The position numbers were made by a program, and so were the translations under genes. A stretch of 64,000 nt of DNA from Halobellus sp. MBLA0158 (GTDB taxonomy: Archaea > Halobacteriota > Halobacteria > Halobacteriales > Haloferacaceae), in assembly GCF_041477585.1 (NCBI RefSeq), contig NZ_JBGNYA010000001.1, positions 124,001 through 188,000 of the forward strand, in the 5' to 3' direction. A model generated the notes under the pieces. That model saw only the letters and a list, made by a program, of their open reading frames with translations. It made no database searches and was not told the origin of the DNA. Below are positions 4,682-8,679 of this stretch, piece by piece; the stretch's first letter is position 1; the number at the start of each line of letters is the position of its first letter.

Positions 4682-5629
4682 ATGGCGAATCGGATTCGAC
4701 GACGGTTCGGGGACGCCTACGAGCGGATGCTCCGGCGGCAGCTCGATTCGGCCCCGACCCACGTCGCGATCATCCAGGACGGAAACCGACGCTACGCCCG
4801 CAAACAGGGCGACGACGCGCCCGAGGGCCACCGCGAGGGCGCACAGACGACAGAGCAGGTGCTGGAGTGGTGCGACGAACTGGGGATCGAAGAGCTGACG
4901 CTGTATGCCTTCTCGACGGAGAACTTCAACCGCCCCGACGAGGAGCTCGAACCGCTCTTCGACCTCCTCGAATCGAAGCTCTACGAGTTCGCCGACGCCG
5001 ACCGCGTCCACGAGAACGGCGTCCGGATCGGCGCGATCGGCGACGTGGAGCGGCTCCCCGACCGCGTCCGGGAGGCCGTCGAGTACGCCGAGTCCCGGAC
5101 CGCCGAGTACGACGCGCTTCGGCTCAACATCGCCCTCGCGTACGGCGGTCGCTCCGAGCTCCTGGGCGCCGCACGGGAGATCGCGCGGGAGGTGGACGCG
5201 GGCGAACTCGATCCCGACGACGTCGACACCGACGCCGTCGAGGACCGGCTGGCGCGCCACACCACCCGCGCCGTGGACCTGATCATCCGGACCGGCGGCG
5301 ACGAGCGGACCTCGAACTTCCTGCCGTGGCACGCCAACGGCAACGAGGCCGCCGTCTACTTCTGTGCGCCCTACTGGCCGGAGTTCTCGAAGATCGACTT
5401 CATGCGCGGGCTCCGGACCTACGAGTCCCGCGCCGAGTCCTGGCGCCAGTCCCGGACCGAGCGGGCTGTCGCGCTTTTGCGCGCGGTCGCGGAGACCGAA
5501 CTCGCCGACGCGAAAACCGTCGCCGGACGGCTCCGCGCGCAACTGCCGTCCGCGGGGGCCCAGGAGGTCTCGGCCGAACTGGAGCGCCAGCACGGCACCG
5601 ACGCGCCGTCCGTCGAGCGGGCCGACTGA
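4682..5629 (+). CDS. uppS: cis-prenyltransferase (polyprenyl diphosphate synthase), catalytic-type subunit
   Basis: Cis-prenyltransferases extend allylic diphosphates with isopentenyl diphosphate to make the lipid carrier used in N-glycosylation. Present are the substrate-binding motif HVAIIQDGNRRYA (residues ~22-34), LTLYAFSTENFNRP, LNIALAYGGR and DLIIRTGGDERTSNF. The canonical C-terminal R-x-G motif is missing: the tail reads LRTYESRAESWRQSRTERA and continues with a ~70-residue helical extension. A start at GTG 4670 is also possible; ATG 4682 gives the usual N-terminal length. It converges on a second paralogue 64 bp downstream, which has the R-x-G motif and lacks the catalytic one, suggesting the two form a heteromer. 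Confidence 0.95.
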   Translation: MANRIRRRFGDAYERMLRRQLDSAPTHVAIIQDGNRRYARKQGDDAPEGHREGAQTTEQVLEWCDELGIEELTLYAFSTENFNRPDEELEPLFDLLESKLYEFADADRVHENGVRIGAIGDVERLPDRVREAVEYAESRTAEYDALRLNIALAYGGRSELLGAAREIAREVDAGELDPDDVDTDAVEDRLARHTTRAVDLIIRTGGDERTSNFLPWHANGNEAAVYFCAPYWPEFSKIDFMRGLRTYESRAESWRQSRTERAVALLRAVAETELADAKTVAGRLRAQLPSAGAQEVSAELERQHGTDAPSVERAD

Positions 5630-5693
5630 TTTCGGACCGTCCGGCGGTCTTCGGGAGGCCGACAACCGCCACGGTCGCCTCGATCGAACAGCG

Positions 5694-6302
5694 TTAGCGG
5701 CCGAACCGCCGCTGTCGGTCCTGGTAGTCCAGGAGCGCCCGGAGGTAGTCGCGGCGGCGGAAGTCCCGCCAGTTGACGTCCGTGAAGTACAGCTCCGAGT
5801 AGACCGACTGCCAGATCAGGAAGTCCGAGAGCCGCTCGGCGCCGGTCTTGATCAGCAGATCGGGCTCGTCGTCGAAGACGAGCCGCTCTTCGATGCGGTC
5901 GGCGTCGACGTCGTCGGGGGCCAGGTCGCCGGCGTCGACCGCCTCGGCGATCTGCCTGACGGCCGCGGCGAACTCCCGCTTGCCGCCGAGGCCGATGCTG
6001 ATCCGGATCGGGGCGTCGGCGCGCTCGGTGTCGCCGGGGGCGCGGACGTCGACCGGCCGCGGCGCTTCCACGTTCCGGAGTTCGCGTTCGAGCGTCGGCA
6101 CGACGGCCTCGTCGAGGACGCTGACAGAGACCGTCACGCGGCGGGCGCCGTACTCGAAGGCCCACTCGAAGAAGTCCGCGAGCGTGTCGTAGGCGCCCTG
6201 CTCCAGGAGGTCGCGCTCGGTGATTACGACCGCGACGTGCGCCGGCGGGTCGGCGTCGTGGAGCCGGTAGCGGAGGGCGAGGTACCGATCGTACAGTCCC
6301 AC
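5694..6302 (-). CDS. cis-prenyltransferase paralogue lacking the catalytic motif (NgBR-like partner)
   Basis: A 202-residue member of the undecaprenyl diphosphate synthase family. The C-terminal half is canonical: ISIGLGGKREFAAAVRQIAE, PDLLIKTGAERLSDFLIWQS, VYSELYFTDVNWRDF, and a terminal QRRFG that is the R-x-G motif. In the N-terminal half the DGNRR catalytic motif is replaced (HVAVVITERDLLEQ), and the FSTEN motif is absent (VSVSVLDEAVV). It therefore cannot bind the allylic diphosphate in the usual way. Eukaryotic NgBR/Nus1 subunits show the same division of motifs. The GTG at 6302 is the family-like start; frames further upstream look non-coding. Confidence 0.88.
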   Translation of the reverse strand: MGLYDRYLALRYRLHDADPPAHVAVVITERDLLEQGAYDTLADFFEWAFEYGARRVTVSVSVLDEAVVPTLERELRNVEAPRPVDVRAPGDTERADAPIRISIGLGGKREFAAAVRQIAEAVDAGDLAPDDVDADRIEERLVFDDEPDLLIKTGAERLSDFLIWQSVYSELYFTDVNWRDFRRRDYLRALLDYQDRQRRFGR

Positions 6303-6470: not shown

Positions 6471-7283
6471 GTGCGGATCGGCGCCGCGGGGGGTCGAACG
6501 GCGGTGAGCCACTCGCTGCGGACGGTCGCGCGGCGGCCGCTGGTGCGACACCTGCTGCGCCCGGTCGCGGCGTTCGCGGCCGTGGTCGGGGTCGGAGTCG
6601 CGGCGTTCGCGGCCGTGGTCGGGGTCGGAGTCGCGGGATTCAGTTCGCTCGGGGGCGTCGGCGTCGTCGACGCCCTCTTTTGGCTGCTGGATCCCACGAG
6701 CATCGAGTTGCACTTTCAGGCGCACGAGGGCCCCGAGACGCTGGTGAAGGGCTATGCGGTCGTGGTCCTCTCGGGGCTCGTCGTCACCGGGCTGTGGATC
6801 GGCGAGACGGTCTTTTCGGCGGCCTTCGGCGGGCAGATCAAATCGGAGTTCAAACAGATGCAGATCGAACGCGCGATCGACGAGGCGGAGGGGCACATCA
6901 TCATCTGCGGCTACGGGACGTTCGGCAAGACCGTCGCCGGGTCGCTGCGCGAGGGCGACCGGGAGGTCGTCGTGATCGAACAGGACGACGCCGAGTACCG
7001 GCGCGCGGTCGACGACGACGTCCTCGCGATCCAGGGCGACGCCCGGCGCGAGGAGACGCTGACCGACGCCGGCGTCAAGCGGGCCGCCACGGTCGTCGGC
7101 GCCATCGACGACTCGAACGCGAACATCCAGATCGCGATGGCCGCGAGCCAGATCGCGCCGACGGTGCGGCTCGTCGTCCGCGTCGGCGACGAGATGTACG
7201 AGCCGCTGGCGCGCCGGGCGGGCGCAGACGAGGTGATCATCCCGGAGATCGCGAGCGCCCGGCAGGTGACGGCGAACCTCTGA
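6471..7283 (+). CDS. membrane-anchored RCK (TrkA-N) NAD-binding protein
   Basis: The N-terminal ~110 residues hold two hydrophobic segments flanking a loop (DALFWLLDPTSIELHFQAHE), followed by a charged linker (GGQIKSEFKQMQIERAIDEA) and a Rossmann RCK/TrkA-N domain with HIIICGYGTFGKTVAGSL and an acidic strand end (VVVIEQDD). The layout is that of a two-helix potassium-channel-like protein, but no TVGYG-type selectivity filter is present, so channel activity is doubtful; it may be a regulatory or degenerate channel relative. The first hydrophobic segment is lengthened by a perfect 33-bp tandem duplication. GTG 6471 or GTG 6504 could be the start. Confidence 0.8.
   Translation: MRIGAAGGRTAVSHSLRTVARRPLVRHLLRPVAAFAAVVGVGVAAFAAVVGVGVAGFSSLGGVGVVDALFWLLDPTSIELHFQAHEGPETLVKGYAVVVLSGLVVTGLWIGETVFSAAFGGQIKSEFKQMQIERAIDEAEGHIIICGYGTFGKTVAGSLREGDREVVVIEQDDAEYRRAVDDDVLAIQGDARREETLTDAGVKRAATVVGAIDDSNANIQIAMAASQIAPTVRLVVRVGDEMYEPLARRAGADEVIIPEIASARQVTANL
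6564..6629 (+). repeat. perfect 33-bp tandem duplication in a membrane segment
   Basis: Two identical 33-bp units (6564-6596 and 6597-6629) encode the 11-residue unit VAAFAAVVGVG twice, and seven further bases of a third unit follow. The period is a multiple of three, so the frame is kept. The result is an unusually long Ala/Val/Gly membrane helix in the RCK protein. Confidence 0.9.
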
Positions 7284-7374: not shown

Positions 7375-8679
7375 GTGCAACCGACGCTTCGGCGAGCGGG
7401 CGGGTTCGCCCTCGTTGGGACGCTCGCGGTCGCCGCCCCGGTGCTCGGCCGGGCGGCGTTCGTCCCGTTCGCCGCCGTCGCCGTCCTCGCGGCGTTCGTG
7501 ATCACGGACGGGCCGCTGTTCGACCTCTTCGCCCGGCCCGCGGACCGCCGCGAGGGTCGGCTGAACGGCCTCGCCGGCTTCTCGCTCGCGGCGGCCGGCC
7601 TCGCGATCCTCGCCACCGAACTGGGCCTGCCGACGGACCTGTACGTCGCGGCGGTGTTCGTCCTCGCGTACGGGAACCTCGGCAAGCGGCTGGTGGCCGA
7701 GACCTCCGACGAGCCGTTCCTGGGCGCCGCGGGGTTCGGCGTCGGCGGCGCCGTCGCGGGGTTCGCCGGCCAGGCGGCCGTCTCCTCGCTGACGTCGACG
7801 TCGATCGCCGTCCCCCGGTTCGCCTTCCTCGCGGTGGCGGGGACGCTCGTCGCCGCGCTCTTCCGGGAGATGCTCTTCGAGCGCGACGACCCGCTCGTGA
7901 TGCTCTCGACGGGGCTGTTGCTGTGGCTGTTCGACGCGCTCGCCGTCTCTGTCGGCGTCGTCGACGTCGGCGCCGCGCTCGCGGTCACCGTCGCGCTCGG
8001 CTACGCCTCCTACGCGCTCGGCGCGGCCTCCGTCGCCGGGATGCTCTCGGGCGTCCTCCTGGGGCTCTTGGTGATCGTCTTCGGCGGCTTCGGGTGGTTC
8101 GCCGTCCTCATCACGTTCTTCGGCGTCGGGTCGCTGTCGACGAAGTTCCGGTACGAGGAGAAGAAGCGCCGCGGCATCGCCGAGGAGAACGAGGGCGCGC
8201 GCGGCACCGGCAACGTCCTCGGCAACGCCGCCGTCGCGCTGCTGTGTGTGATCTGCTTCGCCGGCAGCCAGTCGCTCTCGGTCGAGGGCGCAGTCTTCCA
8301 GTTCGCCTTCGCGGGGTCGATGGCGGCCGCCCTCAGCGACACGCTCTCCTCGGAGATCGGCGGCCTCTACGACAGCCCGCGGCTCATCACGACCCTCGAG
8401 CCAGTCCCGCCGGGGACCGACGGCGGCGTGACCTGGCAGGGCGAGGTGTTCGGACTCCTCGGCGCGCTCGTCGTGGGCGGCGTCGCGCTCGCGCTCCTGC
8501 CGGGCGTCTCGCCGACCGGCGCGGGGGTCGTCGTCCTCGGCGGCGTCGTCGGGATGACGGCCGACAGCGTCCTCGGCGCGACCGTCGAGGGGCCGCGGTT
8601 CGGCAACGAGGCGGTGAACTTCGCCGCGACGTTCGTCGGCGCGGTCGTGAGCGGCCTCGTCGCCCTGGCGCTGTTGTAG
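7375..8679 (+). CDS. DUF92 family integral membrane protein
   Basis: A 434-residue polytopic protein with about eleven hydrophobic segments. The C-terminal half is the DUF92/TMEM19 domain: FGGFGWFAVLITFFGVGSLS, STKFRYEEKKRRGIAEENEG, RGTGNVLGNA, SDTLSSEIGGLYDSPRLI and VPPGTDGGVTWQGEVFGLLG. The family includes plant VTE6, a phytyl-phosphate kinase, so a prenyl-phosphate kinase activity is plausible but unproven. The N-terminal ~200 residues are an extra hydrophobic domain. It starts at GTG 7375, about 27 nt after cgttaagtg, and is followed after 2 bp by a GNAT gene, so the two are co-transcribed. Confidence 0.88.
   Translation: MQPTLRRAGGFALVGTLAVAAPVLGRAAFVPFAAVAVLAAFVITDGPLFDLFARPADRREGRLNGLAGFSLAAAGLAILATELGLPTDLYVAAVFVLAYGNLGKRLVAETSDEPFLGAAGFGVGGAVAGFAGQAAVSSLTSTSIAVPRFAFLAVAGTLVAALFREMLFERDDPLVMLSTGLLLWLFDALAVSVGVVDVGAALAVTVALGYASYALGAASVAGMLSGVLLGLLVIVFGGFGWFAVLITFFGVGSLSTKFRYEEKKRRGIAEENEGARGTGNVLGNAAVALLCVICFAGSQSLSVEGAVFQFAFAGSMAAALSDTLSSEIGGLYDSPRLITTLEPVPPGTDGGVTWQGEVFGLLGALVVGGVALALLPGVSPTGAGVVVLGGVVGMTADSVLGATVEGPRFGNEAVNFAATFVGAVVSGLVALALL

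Follow-up and report, generated by a model that had tools for sequence, protein, structure and literature searches.

To our knowledge, heteromeric cis-prenyltransferases (cis-PTs) are usually described as a feature of eukaryotes, with one archaeal example. The bacterial UppS enzymes (E. coli, B. subtilis) are homodimers with all active-site motifs on one chain. In the human enzyme the R-x-G tail of NgBR extends across the interface into DHDDS, where it organises the two substrate sites (PMC7573591). Among the archaea, MM_0618 and MM_1083 of M. mazei make up a heteromeric enzyme with C45-50 products, according to a passage of PMC8131916 that cites Emi et al. 2019. On the other hand, the MM_0014-type archaeal enzyme is an active homomer that has no R-x-G (PMC8131916), so the loss of R-x-G alone is no proof of inactivity.

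We analysed a window of 64,000 nucleotides of the Halobellus sp. MBLA0158 genome, that is, the whole stretch of DNA in which the positions below are counted. It contains two cis-PT-like genes, called A and B, with the following features.

4682..5629, + strand: subunit A, cis-prenyltransferase-like, putative catalytic subunit, 315 aa (PF01255, TIGR00055, AF2 fold)
4778..4792, + strand: DGNRR motif of A (E. coli UppS Asp26-Arg30 region; D, N and R in 53/53 A)
4910..4924, + strand: FSTEN motif of A (S71, E73 and N74 in 53/53 A; F70 in 52/53)
5327..5362, + strand: A-specific loop WHANGNEAAVYF, with two residues inserted at the site of Glu213 (from the alignment)
5438..5626, + strand: C-terminal helical extension of A, no R-x-G (AF2 helices H237-270, H274-287, H290-305)
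5694..6302, - strand: subunit B, cis-prenyltransferase-like putative partner, 202 aa (C-terminal part of PF01255, AF2 fold)
5700..5708, - strand: R-F-G (R-x-G) tail of B (Gly and Arg/Lys in 49/49 B)
5784..5813, - strand: WQSVYSELYF segment of B, with E170 as the Glu213 equivalent (Glu in 49/49 B)
7375..8679, + strand: DUF92 (PF01940) membrane protein, putative prenyl-phosphate kinase, neighbour of B (Pfam, 199 bits)

Active-site residues of the two proteins

The genes are arranged tail-to-tail, with start codons ATG at 4682 (A, + strand) and GTG at 6302 (B, - strand) and with 64 nt between the two stop codons. In the Pfam search A matched positions 1-216 of the 219 of PF01255 (232 bits), and its match to TIGR00055 (uppS) reached 241 bits; B matched only positions 110-219 of the same 219 (93 bits). 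An earlier note on this DNA had described a plus-strand protein with DGNRR and FSTEN and no C-terminal R-x-G, next to and convergent with a minus-strand protein that lacks DGNRR and FSTEN and keeps WQSVYSELYF and QRRFG. The motifs read in A and in B, as well as the coordinates, agree with this description. The same note had named a third, complete cis-PT elsewhere in the genome as something that would refute its reading; a profile search of all 3.29 Mb found no third PF01255 gene besides A and B.

The residues were counted in 53 A-type and 49 B-type proteins and numbered as in E. coli UppS. Besides those of the window and its relatives, these proteins came from about 40 other genomes, in all from about 30 families. 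Nine residues (Asp26, Asn28, Arg30, Ser71, Asn74, Arg77, Arg194, Arg200 and Ser202) were invariant in all 53 A proteins, and four others (Glu213, Arg239, Arg241 and Gly244) in all 49 B proteins. All the A-type proteins combine intact S1/S2 residues with the absence of an R-x-G tail (53/53), and A of the window also has the RTGG..R.SN motif, while the B-type proteins carry the C-terminal R-x-G (49/49) and have no conservation at the residues of DGNRR and FSTEN. Neither protein has DGNxR and R-x-G on one chain, as a homodimeric UppS does. The Glu213 site of A, read as W-H-A-N-G-N-E-A-A-V-Y-F in the alignment, is remodelled, not merely missing: the insertion is kept in the relatives, most A proteins of the phylum have the inserted form, and N-E is conserved in most of them. 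The terminus of B is QRRFG-R, with one residue beyond the Gly.

In these motifs A is like the catalytic subunits of human DHDDS/NgBR and yeast Rer2/Nus1, which have DGNRR-FS.EN and no R-x-G, and B is like NgBR, which has R-x-G and no DGNRR. B differs from NgBR in keeping the Glu213 residue. The N-terminal membrane anchor of the DHDDS/NgBR subtype is absent as well, B (202 aa) beginning at the cis-PT fold. With bacterial UppS the pair has the fold and the catalytic residues in common, and the C-terminal half of B aligns with it free of gaps from ELYF to RRFG; the difference is that in Halobellus the motifs are divided over two proteins.

For the AF2 monomer model of A (pLDDT 83.5) the best-ranking PDB fold was that of substrate-bound E. 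coli UppS (1x06; Foldseek TM 0.88 by target length), and the model also aligned with DHDDS over a longer stretch. The model of B (pLDDT 85.5) had the cis-PT fold, with the active-site loops and the tail at lower confidence, and matched UppS and DHDDS chains. In profile comparisons the best PDB match of A was DHDDS, at 220 bits versus 214 for E. coli UppS, whereas B matched bacterial UppS at 129 bits versus 41 for NUS1.

One could regard B as a decaying cis-PT pseudogene, as its N-terminal half has no catalytic motif at all and is not recognised by Pfam. Its reading frame, however, is open and is kept throughout the phylum: an alignment of 58 proteins has 18 invariant columns, and the identity to the B protein of Halobellus inordinatus is 87%. 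This conservation rules the pseudogene out, and we give it practically no probability. Besides, we saw two departures from the usual form of B: short and divergent open frames of 164-168 aa that retain the RRFG end (L077 and L079, family f26), and a B gene interrupted by a single in-frame TAG in the Methanosarcina family (G209:C1:2055464-2056108), where the TAG is possibly a pyrrolysine codon or a sequencing error.

A candidate two-subunit enzyme

From these residues, and from the co-occurrence, linkage and parallel divergence described below, we consider it very probable that A and B together form an obligate heteromeric cis-PT, making the polyprenol of a glycosyl carrier, with the tail of B completing the active site of A. 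Since B has exactly the R-x-G tail and A has precisely those residues that B lacks, a composite site on A is the most economical reading. Subunit A would supply the residues that bind Mg2+ and the allylic substrate, those that bind IPP, and the chain tunnel. Subunit B, its own active site lost, would pack on A as the other half of the usual dimer, and its C-terminal Arg-x-Gly tail would reach over the interface to complete the active site of A, as NgBR does for DHDDS. Each A-B dimer would have one composite active site, located on A, and the product, a cis-polyprenyl diphosphate of about C50-C60, would go on to the glycosyl carrier (a dolichol-type phosphate) for surface glycoproteins. The sequences themselves show how the motifs are divided and conserved, that the two genes occur together, diverge in parallel and are linked, and that this genome has no other cis-PT; the physical complex, the completion of the active site in trans, the product length and the role in N-glycosylation are what we infer for this pair. 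The annotation of both genes as undecaprenyl diphosphate synthase implies two enzymes and would need correction.

Co-occurrence, layout and gene neighbours

We surveyed 391 genomes of the host phylum that were at least 90% complete, calling A by a strong full-length match to PF01255 and B by its score against a B profile. The latter bears on family f26, the deepest one, in which B is short and divergent. Any cis-PT was present in 388 of the 391 genomes, and both A and B in 386. Among 40 relatives, all had cis-PT genes, nearly always one full-length and one C-terminal-only match to PF01255. The pattern of A and B is not due to chance, because relatives of both are kept across the phylum; the pair is the near-universal, normal arrangement there, not an oddity.

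No genome of the 391 had A without B. B was found without A in two, G321 and G185. The stretches on either side of A in a congener of G321 correspond to the extreme ends of two G321 contigs, C22 and C75. The A gene of G321 therefore falls in an assembly gap, and G321 is ruled out as a genuine B-only genome. The second, G185, apparently with B alone, is 95% complete in 80 contigs. Three genomes, all more than 90% complete, had no cis-PT of either type: G412, and two members of a single genus, G046 and G054. Their lack of cis-PT reflects either binning gaps or a lineage lacking the enzyme. The congeners of G412 carry both A and B; with two genomes of one genus lacking both, there may be at least one lineage that manages without.

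The earlier note had named co-occurrence as a further check, and the result is near-strict: 386 of the 388 genomes with any cis-PT have both subunits, and one of the two exceptions is an assembly gap. The two-subunit reading that it proposed is thus supported by the motif split, by this co-occurrence and by the finding of only two cis-PT genes in the Halobellus genome. Within this one archaeal phylum, the survey points to two subunits as the rule, the active-site residues being cleanly divided between them.

It could still be argued that A works as a stand-alone homodimer and that B, a former paralogue, has a separate role, for instance as a regulator of A or as a protein that binds a prenyl lipid. 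The MM_0014-type enzymes, active as homomers without R-x-G (PMC8131916), speak for this, as does the position of B on the opposite strand, hence outside any operon shared with A. However, R-x-G is missing in 53 of 53 A proteins, not one A in the survey lacks a B, and the Glu and Arg-x-Gly of B, invariant in 49 of 49, would be superfluous in a regulator. The Methanosarcina pair of the 2019 work by Emi and co-workers is, moreover, reportedly active only when the two proteins are together. That this pair is a heteromer is also what the passage cited from PMC8131916 states. Altogether, we regard a stand-alone A as very unlikely.

The Methanosarcina pair belongs to the same phylum, and both the A and the B types are present in Methanosarcina genomes. 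One of these is G338, presumably that of Methanosarcina acetivorans. Besides A and B it encodes a third protein, whose match to M. mazei MM_0014 reaches 456 bits; this third protein is the MM_0014 orthologue, and A and B therefore correspond to MM_0618 and MM_1083 by elimination. On this ground, and given the account of the M. mazei enzymes in PMC8131916, the link to the Methanosarcina heteromer that the earlier note drew is upheld. In G338, A and B lie far apart beside a third enzyme of the MM_0014 type, while in Halobellus 64 nt separate them and no third enzyme exists. Neither A nor B of Halobellus is itself of the MM_0014 type (short chain, TLGG end, orthology to MM_0014), which in some methanogens is a separate third gene.

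Extra copies were also seen. An additional full-length, divergent cis-PT occurs in G040, G057, G145, G168 and G338; those of G338 and G057 are MM_0014-like with a TLGG end. Two haloarchaea (G309 and G289) and G057 (L086, L087) have a second A-type gene and no second B; the extra A is possibly an alternative catalytic subunit that uses the single B.

For the gene layout, genome contigs were scanned with the B alignment, which gave 80 named loci, all from the host phylum or from unassigned Euryarchaeota. They come from haloarchaea, Methanosarcina, Methanoperedens, Methanothrix, Argoarchaeum, Syntrophoarchaeum and Methanophagales. In 45 of these named loci A lay no more than 5 kb from B; all 45 pairs were convergent, about half of them with a gap of less than 100 nt. 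The convergent layout is not universal, even among haloarchaea: the two genes are separated in some of these, as well as in Methanosarcinaceae, family f21 (Archaeoglobi-like) and several further families. In seven loci of other genomes (L033, L038, L039, L040, L041, L046 and L051) the 3' ends of the convergent frames overlap, and the end of A is there antisense to the R-x-G tail of B. In Halobellus inordinatus (L158) the gene order from DnaG to RLI is identical to that of the window, with 86% identity for A and 87% for B.

The DUF92 gene stands head-to-head (divergent) with B, and not with A, in most of the 80 named loci, both in haloarchaea and in several lineages of methanogens or methanotrophs. 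For example, in Methanothrix it is beside B although A is elsewhere. A context of uppS with arCOG02245 (DUF92) was described by Makarova et al., who predicted a kinase of isoprenoid metabolism (PMC5898192). The conserved neighbourhood supports a role in polyprenyl-phosphate metabolism. In the window a TrkA_N gene (6471-7283, + strand) lies between B and DUF92, as it does in Halobellus inordinatus (L158); no TrkA_N homologue was detected in the other named loci of the 80-locus scan.

The neighbours of the pair in the window are SerRS, TrkA_N, DUF92, GNAT and DnaG, and no glycosylation gene adjoins it. This would suit a heteromer that is active but whose polyprenol serves as a carrier for exopolysaccharide or glycolipid, or as some other isoprenoid, and not in N-glycosylation. 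Haloarchaeal N-glycosylation, on the other hand, needs a dolichol-type carrier, and the genome has no other cis-PT to supply it. We therefore hold this variant unlikely and keep to a two-subunit enzyme that would serve N-glycosylation.

A search of the open-access literature found no paper that names the haloarchaeal A/B pair as a heteromer. What was already known is the Methanosarcina heteromer; the additions are that the pair is near-universal in the phylum, that its tail-to-tail layout is conserved and that B is linked to DUF92.

Origin of the pair

Distances among A proteins and among B proteins were compared over 47 genomes and gave a Mantel r of 0.83, with 0 of 2000 shuffles as high. Such a correlation is as expected for a jointly inherited pair, and shared species history alone also gives a high value. 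A FastTree phylogeny of A, B, bacterial and DHDDS sequences was made from the C-terminal half (about 100 columns). B formed one clade (0.95) and A one group, with the divergent family f26 apart, and the internal order of the two was similar. This topology suggests that the duplication behind A and B probably predates the radiation of the phylum. The grouping of DHDDS with B in the same tree (0.80) is likely due to long-branch attraction and was not used.

A wider scenario would have a single split before the phylum diversified, in which a homodimeric carrier-lipid synthase was abandoned, and would derive the eukaryotic DHDDS/NgBR from the same archaeal pair and not from an independent split; we put it forward as a speculation that is rather improbable as it stands. 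As a model of the human complex, the archaeal A/B pair has the merit of lacking the membrane anchor, and it makes the evolutionary origin of that complex testable.

The C-terminal extension of A was compared with the C-terminal (tetramerisation) domain of DHDDS. No significant sequence match was found between them, and homology of the two has no support from that side; Foldseek covers the extension against DHDDS only at an rmsd of about 10-14 Å. The extension is short or absent in the Methanomicrobia-type families and in some others.
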